Shown here: one piece after another, positions 45,063 through 53,514 of the stretch
Position numbering within the stretch: the stretch's first letter is position 1
Layout of the letters: every line of letters starts with the position of its first letter
Assembly: GCF_008919445.1 (NCBI RefSeq)
Contig: NZ_VSLG01000011.1
Location: 62,001 to 126,000, forward strand
From: Serinicoccus kebangsaanensis
GTDB lineage: Bacteria > Actinomycetota > Actinomycetes > Actinomycetales > Dermatophilaceae
Direction of reading: 5' to 3'
Length of the DNA: 64,000 nucleotides
Position numbers and translations under genes: made by a program
Notes under the pieces: generated by a model
The model's database searches: none
The model's input: only the letters and a program-made list of their open reading frames with translations
What the model was told of the DNA's origin: nothing

Positions 45063-45550
45063 ACTGGCTGAACGGGGCGTCCAGCACGTACTGGCCCCCC
45101 CGCAGCTGGCCGGGAGCTGTTCAGGAAGGAACGGCTCCAACTGAAGGCGTTCAGGATTGCGCCCGCAGGTGCGCTCAAGTCGCTGACTGTTCCGCCGCTG
45201 TACAATCTGCCAAGGGTGCTAGAGGCGGGGCAGGCCGGAGAGACGGTCTACGTGGTTGAGGGCGAAGGGCGTAGATGCGCTCTCGGCGCTGAGCCTTGTG
45301 GCGACGTGCAACTTCGACGGGGCTGCTGTGGCCCCGGGCCGATCGAGAGGCGCCCTGGGTACTCCCAGCAACTCGCAGGCGCGAACGTGATTGTCGTGGC
45401 GGACAAGGACGAGCCAGGGTTCGCTCATGCTGCATCCGTCCAGGCCTCGCTCGTCGAGCATGGCGTCCCTGCCCACGTTCGCGACGCAAGGGAAGGAAAG
45501 GGCGTTAGTGACCACCTCACCGCCGGCAGGGACGTTTCGGAGCTTGCGGT
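45063..45550 (+). pseudogene. TOPRIM-domain primase (phage/ICE type), frameshifted
   Basis: Pieces in three frames line up with a mobile-element primase/TOPRIM protein: LNG then GVQHVL (45069-45093, one frameshift), LYNLPRVLEAGQAGETVYVVEGE (about 45197-45266, shown in part), a frameshift, GVDALSALSLVATCNFDGAA, another frameshift, and YSQQLAGANVIVVADKDEPG (TOPRIM DxD), ending EGKGVSDHLTAGRDVSEL. About 90 bases of unrelated sequence interrupt it near 45100-45190. It is a dead gene from a previously mobile element. Confidence 0.65.
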
Positions 45551-45741
45551 CGTGTCTATGCAACAGCAGGCTCCTCCGGAGGCCCCGCCTGCCGTGGTGC
45601 AAGTACCCACCCCGGTGGATTGGGCGAGATGTGGAAGGTGGTCCGTGAAGACGCAGCGACTCCTGCTTTCGCCATGAGTCCGCACCCGTGCACGACCGCG
45701 GGCAGGTTAGGTTGACCCTGGACGCCTACGAAAGGGAGACC

Positions 45742-48700
45742 GTGAGCGCGACCGGAGAGTACTTGGCGGCCCTGAACTCTACACTGACCGCCGGTGATGC
45801 CACCGAGCACAGTCACAGGCCTGCATTTAAGGCATGGGCCGAGTCGTTCAAGGACGAGCTGACTGCGACCAACGAGCCCAAACAATCAGAGTCGAACGCG
45901 CCGGACTTCGATATCAAGAAGCAGCGACGCCACGGTTCCCTCTCCATCGGAAAGATCGAGGCCAAGGACGTAGGTGTGCGGCCAGGGCTGAAAGCAATTG
46001 AAGATGACTCCAACAGGGACACCCCTAGAACTGCCAACGGGCGTCAACTGAAGAGGTACCGGAACGCCTTCGCCAATCTTCTCCTGACAGACTACGTGGA
46101 GTTTCGCTGGTATCGGCGTGGTGATCTTCGAGCTACCGCCAGGCTGGGAGCGATCGCTGAGGGGCAGATCATTCCGGACGCGGACGGTATCGCGGCCATC
46201 GACGCCTTGATGAAGGCCTTCCTGGAGGCTGATCCTGAACGGATCCGGTCTGCGCCAAACCTGGCTCGCCGCATGGCTGGCCTTGCTGCGATTATTCAAG
46301 ACGTGGTGCACCGGTCCTTGACAAAGGGGGCAGCGTCGGATACTACCGTGGGACTCAAAGCCGCCTTCGAGGACACACTTGTTCCCGACCTCAGTGATGA
46401 ACAATTCTCGGATATGCTGGCACAAACAATTGCCTACGGGCTGTTCGCTGCGCGAGCGCAAGCGCCGGGGGCTGACACTTTTACCCGCTCGGATGCAGCC
46501 CACCTTATCCCCAGGACGAATCCGTTCGTTCGCGGGCTCTTCGCGCATCTGGTCGGGCCCGCCCTCAATGACGAGCCGTACGCAGGTTTGGTCGACGACT
46601 TGGCGCAGTTGTTGAGCGATGCCGATGTGGACCACATTCTCAGCAAGTTCGGTGCGGAAAAGGGCGACCCGACGGTTCATTTCTACGAAACATTCCTAGG
46701 CGCATACAATCCCTCGCTGCGGGACATACGCGGGGTCTACTACACTCCCCTGCCGGTCGTAGACTTTATCGTGAAGAACGTGGACCACGTCCTGAAGGAG
46801 AGTTTTGCGCTTCGGGATGGGATTGCAGACACGTCGAGGACGAGTGACGGCCAGCATAAGGTGTTAGTGCTGGACCCAGCAACTGGAACGGGGACGTTTC
46901 TATATGCCACTATTGCGCGCATCAGGAACTCGTTCATCGCTCGCAAGCGCACCTCTCTTTGGTCGGCATATGTGTCGGAGCACCTGCTGCCTCGCATGTT
47001 CGGCTTCGAGCTGATGGTTGCGCCCTACGCCGTCGCTCACCTCAAGCTGGCCCTGCAGTTGGGAGGCAAGGACCTTCCCCGGGATGAGCGACATGACATC
47101 GAATACGATTTCGCGAAGGATGAGCGCATCGGCGTTTATCTAACAAACGCACTGGATCCAGCTGAAGCGCATACGACTCTTCCATTGGGCAAGTTCATTA
47201 CGGATGAAGCAAACGCTGCTTCGGCGGTGAAAAGCGAGAAGCCGATCATGGTAGTTATGGGAAACCCACCCTACCAGGGCCAGTCCGCCAACTCTTCGAC
47301 TCGCCGCGAGTTTTCGCGCACCGTCAAGGGCGCTGCTCAGTACAAGACCGTCAAGACCGCGATTGGCACTCTGCTCGAAGACTATTATGCGGTGGATGGC
47401 GCACCCCTGGGAGAGGTCAATTCGAAGTGGCTACAGGATGACTACGTTAAATTCATCCGCCTCGGTCAGGACCGAATCGAGAGGACCGGCCAAGGTGTCC
47501 TCAGCTACGTGACCAATCACACTTATTTGGACGCGCCTACCTTCCGCGGGATGCGCGCTAGCTTGCTCCGAACATTTGATGACATCTACGTCCTGGACCT
47601 ACACGGGTCGATGCGTCGAAGGGAGGTGAACCCTGATGGCGGGGTGGACGAGAACGTCTTCGATGCCATTCAGCAAGGTGTGGCCATCGCTCTGTTTGTG
47701 AAGAGCAGCGACTCCAAGGACCTGGCCACCATTCACTACACGGATGCCTGGGGTAGCCGTAAGGCGAAATATGAATGGCTCGAAGAGACGAACTTCCGCG
47801 ACGTTCAATGGGAGTCTTTCACGCCCACATCGCCCTTCTATGGCTTTCGCCCGGAGGACCAAGACATCCGGGCCGAGTGGGACGCGGCAGTTTCTCTCAC
47901 CGAGATTTTCCCGGTGTACTCGACAGGCATCGTTACGCATCGTGATGACTTCGCGGTTAATACACGTCGGGACCGCCTCCTGGGTAGACTCAAGGACTTC
48001 TGCGACCCGAAGCAGACCGACGCTCAGGTGCGCGCGAAGTATTTCGGAACGAATTCCCGCACTACCGCTACTGGCATCACCTACCTAGCTGGGGACAATC
48101 GTGATTGGTCGATGTCCGATCGTCGGGCATCTCTCATCCGGGACAGTGCACGAGCCGAGTCGATCAAGCCGATGACGCATAGACCCTTCGACAACCGCTT
48201 CGTGATGTATCACCGAGACGCCATCGATGCGCGAAAGTACGACGTGATGCGCCATATGCTCGACGGCGCAAACCTCGGTCTCGTCTCGGCCCGGAGCAAC
48301 AAATCACCGGTGCAAGACCAGTTCTATGTGACGGACTTGATGACAGAGGTGAAGGCGGGCGAGGCGACAACGGGCTCTGTGCTTTTCCCGCTGTGGTTGT
48401 TCCCGGAGCCAGGGGTAGACGCGCCCGAAACGCTGGATATTCTAGCCGACGGCCAGTCCGAGGTTCGCCCCAATCTCGGCTCCTGTGTGACGGTTTTGAT
48501 GCAGCGACTTGGTCTTGAGTTGATCAGCGACGGATCGCCCGGGGATCTCGTCACCACGGCGAATCCACACGATGTCCTGGACTACATCTACGGGGTCGTC
48601 CACTCCCGCACCTACAGACTGCGGTACGAGGCATTCTTGCGGTCGGACTATCCTCGAATACCATTCACGTCGGATCGCGACACCTTCGCGGCCGTGTGCG

Positions 48701-49155
48701 CTCACGGGAGGCGTCTGAGGGAGCTGCACACGCTGAAGGCCAGCGATGCTGATGATGGCCCGGCGGAAGTGTCTGCAGGGAGCAACCTGGTGGACAAGAT
48801 CCCGTTGTCGACGCGCTGGGCGTTGGGTGAGGACGGTGTCGGCCACATCGTCCTCAACCTGGAGGGCGCCAAGGATGGCGGGCCCCAGGTCGTGACAGGC
48901 GTGTCTGCAGATGTCTGGGAGTACCACATCGGGGGCCACCGAGTACTGCACAAGTGGTTGGACGCAAGAGCTAGAGACACTCTGACCTTTGACGAGTTGG
49001 AACACCTGCTTCGCACCGTCAACGCCCTCACAGAAACGATCGAAACGCAGGATCGCATAGAGGAGTTGCTCTCGTCCTGGCCGCTTCCTGGATCGATGCC
49101 CGCGGCAGCGCAGGACCAGGACGCCGGCGAGTCCGAAGTGGTCAGACACGGGTGA
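45742..49155 (+). CDS. Type IIG/ISP-like restriction-modification enzyme without helicase
   Basis: About 1137 residues. Order: PD-(D/E)XK nuclease near the N-terminus (PD54-55, D57, then IEAK with E73 and K75), a helical coupler (about 100-340), an N6-adenine methyltransferase (motif I DPATGTGTF from 378, motif IV NPPY from 508) and a large C-terminal region like the target-recognition part of Type ISP enzymes (LlaGI/LlaBIII). Those have an SF2 helicase between nuclease and methylase and about 1570 residues; none is visible here. GTG at 45742 follows AAGGGAG; an upstream GTG at 45688 is possible. Codon use is clearly less GC-rich than the flanks. Recognition sequence unknown. Confidence 0.87.
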   Translation: MSATGEYLAALNSTLTAGDATEHSHRPAFKAWAESFKDELTATNEPKQSESNAPDFDIKKQRRHGSLSIGKIEAKDVGVRPGLKAIEDDSNRDTPRTANGRQLKRYRNAFANLLLTDYVEFRWYRRGDLRATARLGAIAEGQIIPDADGIAAIDALMKAFLEADPERIRSAPNLARRMAGLAAIIQDVVHRSLTKGAASDTTVGLKAAFEDTLVPDLSDEQFSDMLAQTIAYGLFAARAQAPGADTFTRSDAAHLIPRTNPFVRGLFAHLVGPALNDEPYAGLVDDLAQLLSDADVDHILSKFGAEKGDPTVHFYETFLGAYNPSLRDIRGVYYTPLPVVDFIVKNVDHVLKESFALRDGIADTSRTSDGQHKVLVLDPATGTGTFLYATIARIRNSFIARKRTSLWSAYVSEHLLPRMFGFELMVAPYAVAHLKLALQLGGKDLPRDERHDIEYDFAKDERIGVYLTNALDPAEAHTTLPLGKFITDEANAASAVKSEKPIMVVMGNPPYQGQSANSSTRREFSRTVKGAAQYKTVKTAIGTLLEDYYAVDGAPLGEVNSKWLQDDYVKFIRLGQDRIERTGQGVLSYVTNHTYLDAPTFRGMRASLLRTFDDIYVLDLHGSMRRREVNPDGGVDENVFDAIQQGVAIALFVKSSDSKDLATIHYTDAWGSRKAKYEWLEETNFRDVQWESFTPTSPFYGFRPEDQDIRAEWDAAVSLTEIFPVYSTGIVTHRDDFAVNTRRDRLLGRLKDFCDPKQTDAQVRAKYFGTNSRTTATGITYLAGDNRDWSMSDRRASLIRDSARAESIKPMTHRPFDNRFVMYHRDAIDARKYDVMRHMLDGANLGLVSARSNKSPVQDQFYVTDLMTEVKAGEATTGSVLFPLWLFPEPGVDAPETLDILADGQSEVRPNLGSCVTVLMQRLGLELISDGSPGDLVTTANPHDVLDYIYGVVHSRTYRLRYEAFLRSDYPRIPFTSDRDTFAAVCAHGRRLRELHTLKASDADDGPAEVSAGSNLVDKIPLSTRWALGEDGVGHIVLNLEGAKDGGPQVVTGVSADVWEYHIGGHRVLHKWLDARARDTLTFDELEHLLRTVNALTETIETQDRIEELLSSWPLPGSMPAAAQDQDAGESEVVRHG

Positions 49156-49500: not shown

Positions 49501-50349
49501 ATGGACCTGCCAGAATTTATGAGAGCCGTAGAGACCACGATGCGGGCGGAGTTCGCTCAGTCCAGAGTGGTCGGACATGCTGGAGATCGAGGCGAAAATC
49601 GCGAGCAAATCCTGGTCGATTTCTTAGAGCGACACCTACCGAATCGGTATGGCGTGACAAAAGGTCAAATCATGACCAAGTCAGGAACACTTAGCCATTC
49701 GGCCGATGTCATCATTTACGATGCTCTCAATTGCCCTGTCCTCTACAGAAGCCGTACGGCAGTACTGCCAGTTGAGGGCGTCTACGGCATTATCGAGGTG
49801 AAGTCTCGACTATCCAAGAGTGAACTGCTCGACGCTATGAACAAGATCGAGACTTTCAAGCGCCTCGCGCCGCGAGACCTCTTTCTGGTCCAGACGCGAT
49901 CTTATGCTGCCGCAGATCGCCCATCAAGGCCTTTCGGCATTGTGTTGGCGTACGGGTTTGCCGACAATTCGCTGGAGTCACTAGGGGAGAACTATGCTGC
50001 CAAGTGTGACGATGTTCACGACGTCAACTTCTTTACGAACTTGGTATGTGTCTTGGGCGAAGGTCTTATTCATTATCAGAAAGCTGACCTTATCGCGGGA
50101 CGACGGTCTTTGCTTCTTGACACTGATGAGTTCGTGGACCTAGTTGAACTCTGTCAGAAGAAGACCAGAAACGGAGAAGAAGTTGATGACGTAGTCCTCA
50201 GCATAAAAATGGATTCTCTTGGGGAAGACTCCTTCGGGCGGTTCTTCGTATACCTATTGATCATGCTTGAGCGCATGAAGTTGGGGACACCCGATCTCGG
50301 GGTTTATCTAGATCCAGAATCCAACCGCATGATTAGTAGGGAGTCGTGA
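49501..50349 (+). CDS. DUF6602-type PD-(D/E)XK nuclease-like protein
   Basis: 282 residues. The N-terminal 110 residues carry the restriction-nuclease core: E35 in GENREQILVDFL, D69 in HSADVIIYD and E99-V-K101 in GIIEVKSRL, the same order as DUF6602 proteins of unknown function. The C-terminal half (about 125-282) is mixed alpha/beta without known motifs. Low GC (near 50%). GGAGAGGATGAG lies upstream of the ATG. Followed after one base by a SEC-C gene, so the two are one unit. Lying between a restriction enzyme and a SIR2 protein, a defence role is likely but inferred. Confidence 0.75.
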   Translation: MDLPEFMRAVETTMRAEFAQSRVVGHAGDRGENREQILVDFLERHLPNRYGVTKGQIMTKSGTLSHSADVIIYDALNCPVLYRSRTAVLPVEGVYGIIEVKSRLSKSELLDAMNKIETFKRLAPRDLFLVQTRSYAAADRPSRPFGIVLAYGFADNSLESLGENYAAKCDDVHDVNFFTNLVCVLGEGLIHYQKADLIAGRRSLLLDTDEFVDLVELCQKKTRNGEEVDDVVLSIKMDSLGEDSFGRFFVYLLIMLERMKLGTPDLGVYLDPESNRMISRES

Positions 50350-50350
50350 C

Positions 50351-50689
50351 GTGCCGCGGATCGAGCACGAGGAGCCCTGCCCCTGCGGCAGTGGGTCAAC
50401 CTACGGTGCCTGCCACTTTAAGAAGTATGAAGATCGTAGACCACCTATCAAAGACCATGTCCGATTGACGCTTATCCAGGAGCCGGATCCGGGCACGCGG
50501 GCCGTCTTTGAGCGAACTGAGGGTGGTAGCCTGATTTTTCAGGGCAGGGAGACGTCATACTCTTACGATTGTTCTGCCTGCGGCGCGCCGCTTGCTGTGG
50601 GTATCAACCTTGAACAGATTCAAGGAACTGTTCTCAAATGCTCATCTTGTGACGCATACAATGATACGGTTGAGGGGGCCAAAAGCTGA
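50351..50689 (+). CDS. SEC-C motif protein with second zinc ribbon
   Basis: 112 residues. N-terminal SEC-C zinc motif EPCPCGSGSTYGACH (C10, C12, C21, H22), the metal-binding tail of SecA found also in many stand-alone adaptors, and a second four-cysteine site (C74, C77, C97, C100: YDCSACGAPL, LKCSSCD). GTG start one base after the DUF6602 stop. Probably a zinc adaptor or nucleic-acid/ribosome-binding partner of the nuclease; no enzyme activity is visible. Confidence 0.75.
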   Translation: MPRIEHEEPCPCGSGSTYGACHFKKYEDRRPPIKDHVRLTLIQEPDPGTRAVFERTEGGSLIFQGRETSYSYDCSACGAPLAVGINLEQIQGTVLKCSSCDAYNDTVEGAKS

Positions 50690-52085: not shown

Positions 52086-52353
52086 GGACCTTGCCCCAGC
52101 TGACCTGCGGAAGCACAACTGTGTAAGACGCTGGAGTAGACGGAGTCGGCGCTGGCGACATGTGTGCGTATGGTGGTCTCACCAACGCAAAGACCCCTGG
52201 GTCGGAGCGGGGCGCACCGGACCTCAGGAGTCTCGCGAGTCAACTTGGCGGCTGACACGCACGACTGTAACGGGTTAAGACCGTCTTTGGTAATTGGTGC
52301 AACCTCCTTCGTCCGCAGCGTCTGAGCATCCGACGACGGGCAGGAGGCCCATC

Positions 52354-53514
52354 ATGAGTAGTACCAACATCGCCGCGGTCTGCGGCAACGGCGTCTCGAT
52401 CGCTTTCAACCCCGACCTGGCGTTGTCCTCGATCAACACCGAACTGCGTGCTCGGTTGAACGAGAACTACGGCGAGGGCGAGGCTCCCGCCCAGGTCCTC
52501 GTCGACTTGGCCGACACGGTCGCCAACGACGACGACCCCAACCTGGACTTCGAGGCGCTGCTCGGTCCGTTGGACCAGATGTGGAACGCCCTCGGGGTCC
52601 TCCGGCGCTATGCCAACGTGGTTGGGCCGAGGGACCGGGTGACGGCCGAGCACCTGGTGGGTTCCTACGAGTTCTTGCGGAAGGCCCGCCGGACCGGCAT
52701 CAGCCACGCCTTGGACATCATCGCTGAGCGGTCCGTGGCTCACTTCGATGACAGGCTCCCGCTGCGGCCCTTCGTTGAGGCCCTGTTCGATGCGACGGGA
52801 GACTTCGGGAACCTGACCGTCGGGAACCTGAACTACGACAACATCCTGCAGGCGTGCTTCCTGGACCGGTATAAGGGCCAGGTGTGTGACCTCGCCTCCG
52901 GTGCCAACAGGATGTTGGCGTCGTCCCTGACGGAGGCCTCGGGGTCCAGCAACATCCCTTGTTTCCAGCTGCGAGACGAGTTGGACTTTCCCCGCTACCG
53001 GCGCATCCGCTTGTTGCCGCTGCACGGATCCCTCAACTGGGCCTACTCGCCCAAGGACCACATCACCGTCAAGTTCGACATCGGCACTATGAGGGCCGCT
53101 GACTTCTGGAAGTCATGGCGCAACGGCGAGACGGACCTGGAGCCGAAGGTCGTCCTGACCAACCAGCCCACCAAGTCCAAGGTTGTCCTCGAGCACCCGT
53201 TCTCGCTTGCGTACCAGGGACTGCGTGAGGCCCTGCTTACGTCCGACCACTGGGTGATCGCCGGGTACTCCTTCCGTGACGCCTGCGTCAACCAGCTGCT
53301 GGCCGACGTCATCGAGCAGCGGGGGCACCTGAAGTACCCCAAGATCCTCGTGGTGACGCACGGCAACGACCTGTCCGAGATGCAGGTGAAGACCGCCCTC
53401 GGGGTGACCTTGCTGCACGACGTCATCTTCGACCGGGAGAGCGTCATCGGCGTCCAGGACCGCAGGGCCTGGGGTCGCTGGATGGGTCCCACCCCCCTCG
53501 CTGCGGTCTCCTGA
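52354..53514 (+). CDS. SIR2-like (SIR2_2) protein, putative NAD-consuming defence effector
   Basis: 386 residues. SIR2-family NAD-binding motifs in order: VCGNGVSIAF (G11-N12-G13), GNLNYDN (157-163), LPLHGSLNWAY (H224, catalytic His position) and WVIAGYSFRD (304-309). This is the SIR2_2 type used as NADase in Thoeris, DSR, SIR2-Argonaute and SIR2-HerA systems, but here no partner gene (TIR, Argonaute, HerA) is adjacent. CAGGAGG precedes the ATG. GC is between island and core. A strong hairpin terminator follows. A stand-alone defence role is inferred. Confidence 0.82.
   Translation: MSSTNIAAVCGNGVSIAFNPDLALSSINTELRARLNENYGEGEAPAQVLVDLADTVANDDDPNLDFEALLGPLDQMWNALGVLRRYANVVGPRDRVTAEHLVGSYEFLRKARRTGISHALDIIAERSVAHFDDRLPLRPFVEALFDATGDFGNLTVGNLNYDNILQACFLDRYKGQVCDLASGANRMLASSLTEASGSSNIPCFQLRDELDFPRYRRIRLLPLHGSLNWAYSPKDHITVKFDIGTMRAADFWKSWRNGETDLEPKVVLTNQPTKSKVVLEHPFSLAYQGLREALLTSDHWVIAGYSFRDACVNQLLADVIEQRGHLKYPKILVVTHGNDLSEMQVKTALGVTLLHDVIFDRESVIGVQDRRAWGRWMGPTPLAAVS

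Follow-up and report, generated by a model that had tools for sequence, protein, structure and literature searches.

Two adjacent genes in the 64,000-nt stretch of Serinicoccus kebangsaanensis DNA that we analysed (the window) raise the question of what a DUF6602 nuclease and a small SEC-C protein, encoded side by side, do together. The nuclease gene (49501-50349, + strand) is an intact open reading frame of 282 amino acids with an ATG start, and the partner gene (50351-50689, +) encodes 112 amino acids from a GTG start. The TGA stop codon of the nuclease gene occupies positions 50347-50349 and the single base 50350 separates it from the partner GTG, which confirms both open reading frames and the one-base gap given in a preliminary description of this locus. 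A purine-rich stretch resembling a ribosome-binding site lies within the 3' end of the nuclease gene, before the partner GTG (junction 50331-50353, +). The GC contents of the two genes are 0.509 (nuclease) and 0.552 (partner), compared to 0.714 for the window, in line with the low GC noted earlier; among 1257 sliding blocks the pair is the lowest-GC block of its own size, and only its own 50-150 bp shifts (three) are as low. It lies within a lower-GC region extending from about 44.5 to 53.6 kb, which includes restriction enzyme and SIR2-like genes. The defence setting proposed for the pair is confirmed as well: a restriction enzyme-methyltransferase of type ISP/IIG (45688-49155, +; 1155 aa; Type_ISP_C, 2.5e-66; PADLOC REase_MTase_IIG, 1.3e-227) ends 345 bp upstream and a SIR2-like protein (52294-53514, +; 406 aa; PF13289, 2.6e-8; PADLOC Aga_SIR2, 1.2e-9) is encoded downstream. 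A further open reading frame of 153 aa at 45216-45677 (+) shows weak Toprim-like matches (PRK07078, 1.3e-5, far under the cut-off) and is perhaps the remnant of a mobile-element primase.

The first gene encodes a PD-(D/E)XK nuclease with the fold of NucC, and is a NucC homologue. The protein matches Pfam family PF20247 (DUF6602) above the curated cut-off (E = 1.3e-29, residues 20-122), two PADLOC NucC models (1.6e-27 over residues 2-194 and 8.1e-21 over residues 10-169) and, in phmmer searches, the solved NucCs of Serratia, Pseudomonas, Vibrio and E. coli (from 1.1e-12 for 7zgv to 4.6e-10). The AlphaFold2 model, built from an 8-row alignment, has a pLDDT of 76.1 and a pTM of 0.80, with low-confidence parts at residues 22-31, 127-139 and 278-282. 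Foldseek matches this model to NucC at 6.6e-15, and VIA-align superimposes 218 of its residues on E. coli NucC (6p7p_A) with a Z score of 19.7, an rmsd of 4.0 and 17% identity; Z scores range from 17.5 to 19.7 for seven NucC entries, compared to 10.2 for the top non-NucC entry, BbvCI. The catalytic core assigned previously (E35, D69 and E99-x-K101) stands, since all four residues are invariant in the eight aligned nucleases. D69, E99 and K101 align with D73, E104 and K106 of NucC, and in an alignment of 26 DUF6602 proteins D73 and K106 are kept in every row and E104 in 24, with Q in L076 and S in L078. By likeness to NucC, the window nuclease may be expected to oligomerise and to cleave DNA. 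In the nucleases paired with SEC-C proteins the last long helix is preceded by some 30 additional residues (208-239), which are modelled as a helix (208-223) and a strand (231-239) and are missing in CBASS NucC; within this close clade the protein is conserved almost to its C-terminus.

The second gene encodes a protein with two predicted metal sites. A SEC-C motif (PF02810, E = 2.1e-5; 24.7 bits for a cut-off of 20.4) covers residues 8-23, with C10, C12, C21 and H22 as predicted ligands, and a second, Cys4 ribbon would be formed by C74, C77, C97 and C100. All eight predicted ligands are kept in the five full-length partners, which upholds the earlier view of a two-metal SEC-C protein, with zinc as the assumed metal. 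One review lists among its references work on iron as a ligand of SecA-like metal sites (PMC8076867). The likeness to SEC-C proteins is limited to the 16-residue motif. It is this motif that accounts for the top solved match of the partner, the SecA tail in structure 1ozb (E 7e-4), an entry which presumably also contains SecB. The Cys4 half matches several ribbon families, CSL, Elf1 and RPB9 among them, all under the Pfam cut-offs; Pfam places no antitoxin domain in the partner, and the PADLOC models match the two proteins separately, the nuclease by NucC models and the SEC-C part of the partner by E2 models, with none matching the partner over its full length. The partner model (pLDDT 84.7) gave six fold-search matches, all at E 2.2 or worse, and none of 44 chains reached a Z of at least 2, a result that is uninformative on the fold. 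Relatives of the Cys4 half also occur as stand-alone small proteins in open frames of 76-90 aa, on a viral contig (L016, 7974-8237) and in three genomes (L119, 4029-4259; L120, 4045-4284; L121, 4345-4608). These three are among the 369 genomes of the class to which an Acidovorax MAG discussed below belongs, and were found besides that MAG (2.0e-9, 3.7e-9 and 1.6e-4); two of them adjoin ribosomal-protein genes as judged from open reading frames, and one frame reaches the contig end. Since such relatives occur alone, the Cys4 half seems to be a small, general domain, joined to SEC-C in the two-gene system.

The nuclease and SEC-C genes form a real, horizontally moved two-gene unit. A neighbourhood survey, suggested in the preliminary description, bore out their conservation as neighbours: the pair was found in five diverged lineages, with gaps of 1-2 nt and nuclease identities of 53-79%. 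Besides the window pair, with its 1-nt gap, these are the Acinetobacter baumannii plasmid pA2503 (L002), a small, mobilizable replicon that also carries VapBC and an Abi gene; an Acidovorax MAG (L007); a metagenomic viral contig from IMG/VR (L009); and a second IMG/VR contig (L010), of which the int end of a prophage in E. coli G47-1 (L028) holds a near-copy with 97.7% DNA identity. Their nucleases are full-length and 53-58% identical to that of the window, and each is followed after 2 nt by a SEC-C gene; the recurrence of the pair in lineages this diverged led us to reject chance adjacency. We did not count as lineages L028, or L008 and a second Acinetobacter plasmid record, both near-copies of L002. 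Four of the five lineages are in or likely in Pseudomonadota; the fifth is the window pair, whose high-GC host would be actinobacterial by its composition and gene content. The L010/L028 enterobacterial prophage looks P2-like from its gene list, and the E. coli G47-1 pair sits next to int, outside the defence hotspot between gpA and gpQ that is described for P2-like phages (PMC9122126). The purine-rich stretch inside the nuclease 3' end, together with a 2-nt gap, recurs in L002, L007, L008, L009, L010 and L028; because it precedes the partner start from within the upstream gene, we read it as a probable ribosome-binding site that would couple translation of the two genes. Two observations concern the Acinetobacter branch. 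An Abi family gene (L002, 2214-3131) lies 18 bp upstream of the nuclease gene, with a similar open reading frame on L008, and is possibly a third gene of this branch. L008 itself is labelled as a contig of a Fusobacteriaceae MAG, but its positions 117-2414 share 98.7% identity with the A. baumannii plasmid over 2.3 kb; it is probably a fragment of such a plasmid that was binned in error.

The nuclease clade of the pair is rare. The full-length partner profile was found in one of 394 genomes of the window's class, the window's own, among the matches listed, so that the SEC-C gene does not look like the separate housekeeping gene that the preliminary description had named as a refutation, and we discarded that explanation. 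At E 0.001 or better 264 of the 394 genomes match the profile; the other matches listed end at position 63 of 107 or earlier, and many of these partial matches fall in frames of 890-1000 aa that we take to be SecA. On the nuclease side, a profile (A4) gave DUF6602-type matches of any kind in 13 of 369, 15 of 399 and 4 of 119 genomes, with the close clade (>500 bits) present in a single genome of each set, each an already known carrier; the best match below this clade in those sets scored 168 bits. The SEC-C pattern was missing near all 35 DUF6602 loci of greater distance (18 + 17), in scans with flanks of about 1.5 kb per side for genome loci and less where a contig ended; L011 and L012 are near-duplicates. 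Among 23 further regions the pattern appeared once, in L108; three of these regions (L099-L101) repeat loci from the earlier counts, and L073 is similar to L080. In that region, an Agrobacterium vitis CBASS NucC locus, an unannotated SEC-C-like tail lies at about 5856 (+), some 0.65 kb downstream of nucC. Known phages were considered as a source and set aside: the nuclease matches two phage records with 33% identity over 41%, and the L010 partner matches none. Single-sequence scans of genome contigs and viral contigs gave no lead.

Closely related copies provide some information on how the two genes evolve. With the L010 genes as query, one intact and one broken copy were found among 5426 E. 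coli genomes. In the broken copy, from E. coli LR-71-1 (L029, 11248-12408), IS1 stands in place of most of the nuclease gene, of which only the last part matches, and the partner shows 100% identity with its L010 counterpart. No close-clade nuclease was seen without its partner, and a partner without an intact nuclease was seen in this one strain. Between L002 and L008, the nuclease genes differ by 10 synonymous and no non-synonymous codon changes and the partner genes by 6 and 2, respectively; between L010 and E. coli G47-1 the corresponding counts are 11 and 7 for the nuclease and 4 and 4 for the partner, which shows little constraint. The identities of the two genes across the 10 pairs of the five lineages correlate with an r of 0.58, too few points for use.

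The nucleases of the pair also lack the residues typical of their cyclase-linked relatives. NucC is the effector of CBASS and type III CRISPR systems, and published accounts describe its activation by a cyclic nucleotide (PMC10952713, PMC10419184, PMC8682760), with cAAA binding to an allosteric pocket of the NucC trimer and promoting the formation of hexamers (PMC10419184). In our 26-protein alignment, Tyr/Phe81-Ser82 together with Thr226-Val227 (NucC numbering) occurs in all eight DUF6602 proteins encoded beside a CD-NTase cyclase and in none of the 18 others. Four of the eight belong to annotated CBASS loci (L074, L077, L108, L113) and in the other four (L079, L106, L110, L112) PADLOC confirmed the oligonucleotide cyclase at E 6.7e-83 or better; that of L079, annotated as hypothetical, had been suspected before it was confirmed. 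The five SEC-C-paired nucleases all lack the signature and have an invariant Asn-Cys at its first site, and the cyclase-less L080 has the second site only. The split is significant by Fisher's test when the relatedness of the proteins is ignored (p 6.4e-7), and because FastTree places the eight cyclase-linked proteins in a single clade (support 0.997), with the five SEC-C-paired proteins in another (1.0), the contrast reflects few evolutionary events. Within this sample, the signature of cyclase-linked NucCs has been lost in the SEC-C-paired clade, as judged by the alignment. In the NucC structure of Lau et al., from 2020, Y81, R53 and T226 reportedly contact cA3; the R53 position is Arg or Lys in all five SEC-C-paired nucleases, so that part of the phosphate-binding site could persist.

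The composition of this table bears on how the counts are read. Its 26 rows are 20 plasmid regions, hand-picked with some annotations known from match lists that held 156 and 160 records, plus the window, L007, L009, L010, L011 and L013; L008, L012, L028, the phage region L073 and 32 DUF6602 genome loci (L004-L006, L031-L042, L082-L098) were left out of it. The neighbours of the 18 non-cyclase rows were judged mainly by annotation, and none of the 10 hypothetical or unclear neighbours of cyclase-less rows that were checked (L011 and L013 lying outside this check) matches a cyclase model.

A source of cyclic nucleotide was sought in the 3.5 Mb host genome (37 contigs) with four models. No SMODS cyclase (PF18144), PDLC00810 cyclase, Csm1-type Cas10 (TIGR02578) or Cmr2-type Cas10 (TIGR02577) was found there, and the same searches were positive in 3, 2, 7 and 4 of 14 control genomes, respectively. 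SMODS was also absent from the two genomes carrying L007 and L008. Closer to the pair, no CD-NTase was found among the seven window open reading frames searched or among the annotated neighbours in L002 and L028, the neighbours in L007, L009 and L010 having been examined as open reading frames only. With no cyclase seen beside the pair, we abandoned the idea that it is a CBASS operon.

These observations suggest a model in which the pair encodes a NucC-type DNase that is no longer switched by a cyclic nucleotide and is instead gated by the SEC-C protein encoded next to it, probably in abortive anti-phage defence, a reading to which we give close to an even chance. The first gene would produce a NucC-type double-strand DNase which, with the cyclase-linked residues gone, is probably not activated by cyclic tri-AMP and whose control would have been handed to the SEC-C/Cys4 protein from the next gene. 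In the uninfected cell, the small partner would be bound to the nuclease and prevent it from acting, perhaps by way of the segment around residues 208-239 that is specific to the clade. Upon infection, the metal-binding domains of the partner would sense some cue, the nuclease would be released or switched, and the freed enzyme would destroy DNA as an abortive-infection effector. What the data show directly is the NucC family, the catalytic residues, the pairing, the lost signature and the mobile carriers; oligomerisation, DNA cleavage, translational coupling, partner binding, sensing, gating and the role in defence are inferred. The reasoning is that a NucC-type enzyme puts its host at risk unless it can be switched; the usual signature is missing and a second protein is present in every lineage seen, which makes that protein the most economical candidate for the switch. 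A role of the partner as brake and sensor is favoured by the fact that the clade nuclease was not seen without it, and by the LR-71-1 copy, where the partner stands alone beside a nuclease broken by IS1, a pattern weakly in keeping with the nuclease being the harmful half. The conserved pairing, the mobile settings and the L002-L008 codon counts also speak for the model. Against it stand the 35 distant DUF6602 loci with no SEC-C pattern nearby, which show that a nuclease of this family can do without such a guard, the SEC-C-like tail at the L108 CBASS locus, the second position of the partner gene, the L010-G47-1 codon counts, the Arg or Lys at the R53 position and the few evolutionary events behind the signature contrast. 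The fuller proposal, that this is a protein-switched suicide nuclease of NucC type, with the SEC-C/Cys4 protein as both its brake and its infection sensor, forming a cyclase-free, two-gene counterpart of CBASS that travels on plasmids and prophages between bacteria as distant as Pseudomonadota and the host of the window, is put forward more tentatively, as a possibility we would not yet bet on.

The main rival is that the SEC-C protein is a recruiting adaptor, bringing the nuclease to the ribosome, SecB, RNA polymerase or nucleic acid so that it acts locally. The SecA metal-binding domain binds SecB according to a review, which also states that many bacterial groups have no SecB (PMC8076867). 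The best solved match of the partner is indeed the SecA tail, and weak ribbon matches to the CSL, Elf1 and RPB9 families and to an RNA polymerase I subunit (E 2.2) point the same way; against this, the SEC-C match is confined to its short motif, the ribbon matches fall under the Pfam cut-offs and no named target is tied to the partner. We consider an adaptor unlikely, though worth keeping in mind, and rank control of the nuclease above the targeting to SecA-like, ribosomal or nucleic-acid partners that the preliminary description thought possible.

An alternative that we regard as improbable is that the pair is a toxin-antitoxin or superinfection module whose main effect is to stabilise a plasmid or prophage, with defence at most a by-product. 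Its carriers would fit, since one is a small plasmid that can be mobilized and another a prophage with the pair at its int end, and so would its patchy occurrence, with the close clade in one genome of each of the three sets (1/369, 1/399 and 1/119); however, no adjacent integrase or replicon was seen in the window or the Acidovorax MAG, by open reading frame reading and a family search of the seven window frames. Even less probable, in our estimate, is a nuclease that has remained a messenger-gated NucC, switched in trans by a cyclic oligonucleotide from other systems, with the SEC-C protein as an accessory. Such a reading draws on the strong homology to NucC and on the Arg or Lys aligned with R53 in all five proteins, but it has to contend with the missing signature in 5 of 5 SEC-C-paired proteins, with the failure of four models to detect a cyclase or Cas10 in the host genome and with the fact that no annotated cyclase adjoins the pair in L002 or L028. 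Gating of the nuclease by its partner remains our preferred explanation.

How does the pair compare with known systems? It resembles NucC of CBASS and type III CRISPR in its fold over 218 residues, in the catalytic D/E-x-K and in its defence-type settings, but differs in the missing Y/F81-S82 and T226-V227, in the extra segment at about 208-239 and in the SEC-C gene that immediately follows it in all lineages observed; unlike for CBASS NucC, no cyclase is annotated beside L002 or L028 or was found with the four models in the window's genome. With other DUF6602 proteins that have no annotated cyclase it shares the nuclease superfamily and the lack of the messenger signature, whereas these have no SEC-C pattern nearby and are distant in sequence (at most 33% identity with the window protein for L011-L013, 30% for L078). 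SEC-C motif proteins, such as the SecA tail, YecA, YchJ and some CBASS E2 models, share only the short N-terminal motif of the partner. As in type II toxin-antitoxin systems, two tightly linked mobile genes encode a toxic-looking enzyme and a small partner; many antitoxins are encoded first in their pair, whereas the SEC-C partner is encoded second and has no Pfam antitoxin domain. Our search of the literature for DUF6602, and for SEC-C together with nuclease or defence, found no description of such a system, in agreement with the preliminary description. The latter was right to see a PD-(D/E)XK nuclease in a two-gene unit, which proved to be conserved, and overlooked the homology to NucC and the absence of the cyclase-linked signature; what was presented as a new composition is better seen as a new variation on known NucC effectors, in which a nuclease of this type is found in another, two-gene context with no cyclase in sight. 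If the model is correct, it would show how an immune effector can acquire a new input, and would do so in a two-gene system that lends itself to testing, and it would provide a first function for the SEC-C/Cys4 small-protein family.

Further DUF6602 genes, too, emerge from the survey as probable nucleases of defence systems. Without the messenger signature are the DUF6602 nucleases that adjoin a type I restriction subunit (L078), HerA (3.3e-245) and SIR2 genes (L105), a phosphohydrolase (L075) and an RmrA-like gene (L107; 1.3e-24). A fifth, outside the signature table, adjoins a coiled-coil SMC-like frame as judged from open reading frames (L085), and all five are likely defence nucleases. L079 (890-4747) and L110 (1-5151) are CBASS-type loci in which a cyclase gene, a ThiF-like gene and a Mov34/JAB gene accompany a NucC that carries the messenger signature. 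At L104 (4264-5997), finally, the DUF6602 protein is 577 aa in length, far longer than most, and has an extra part.
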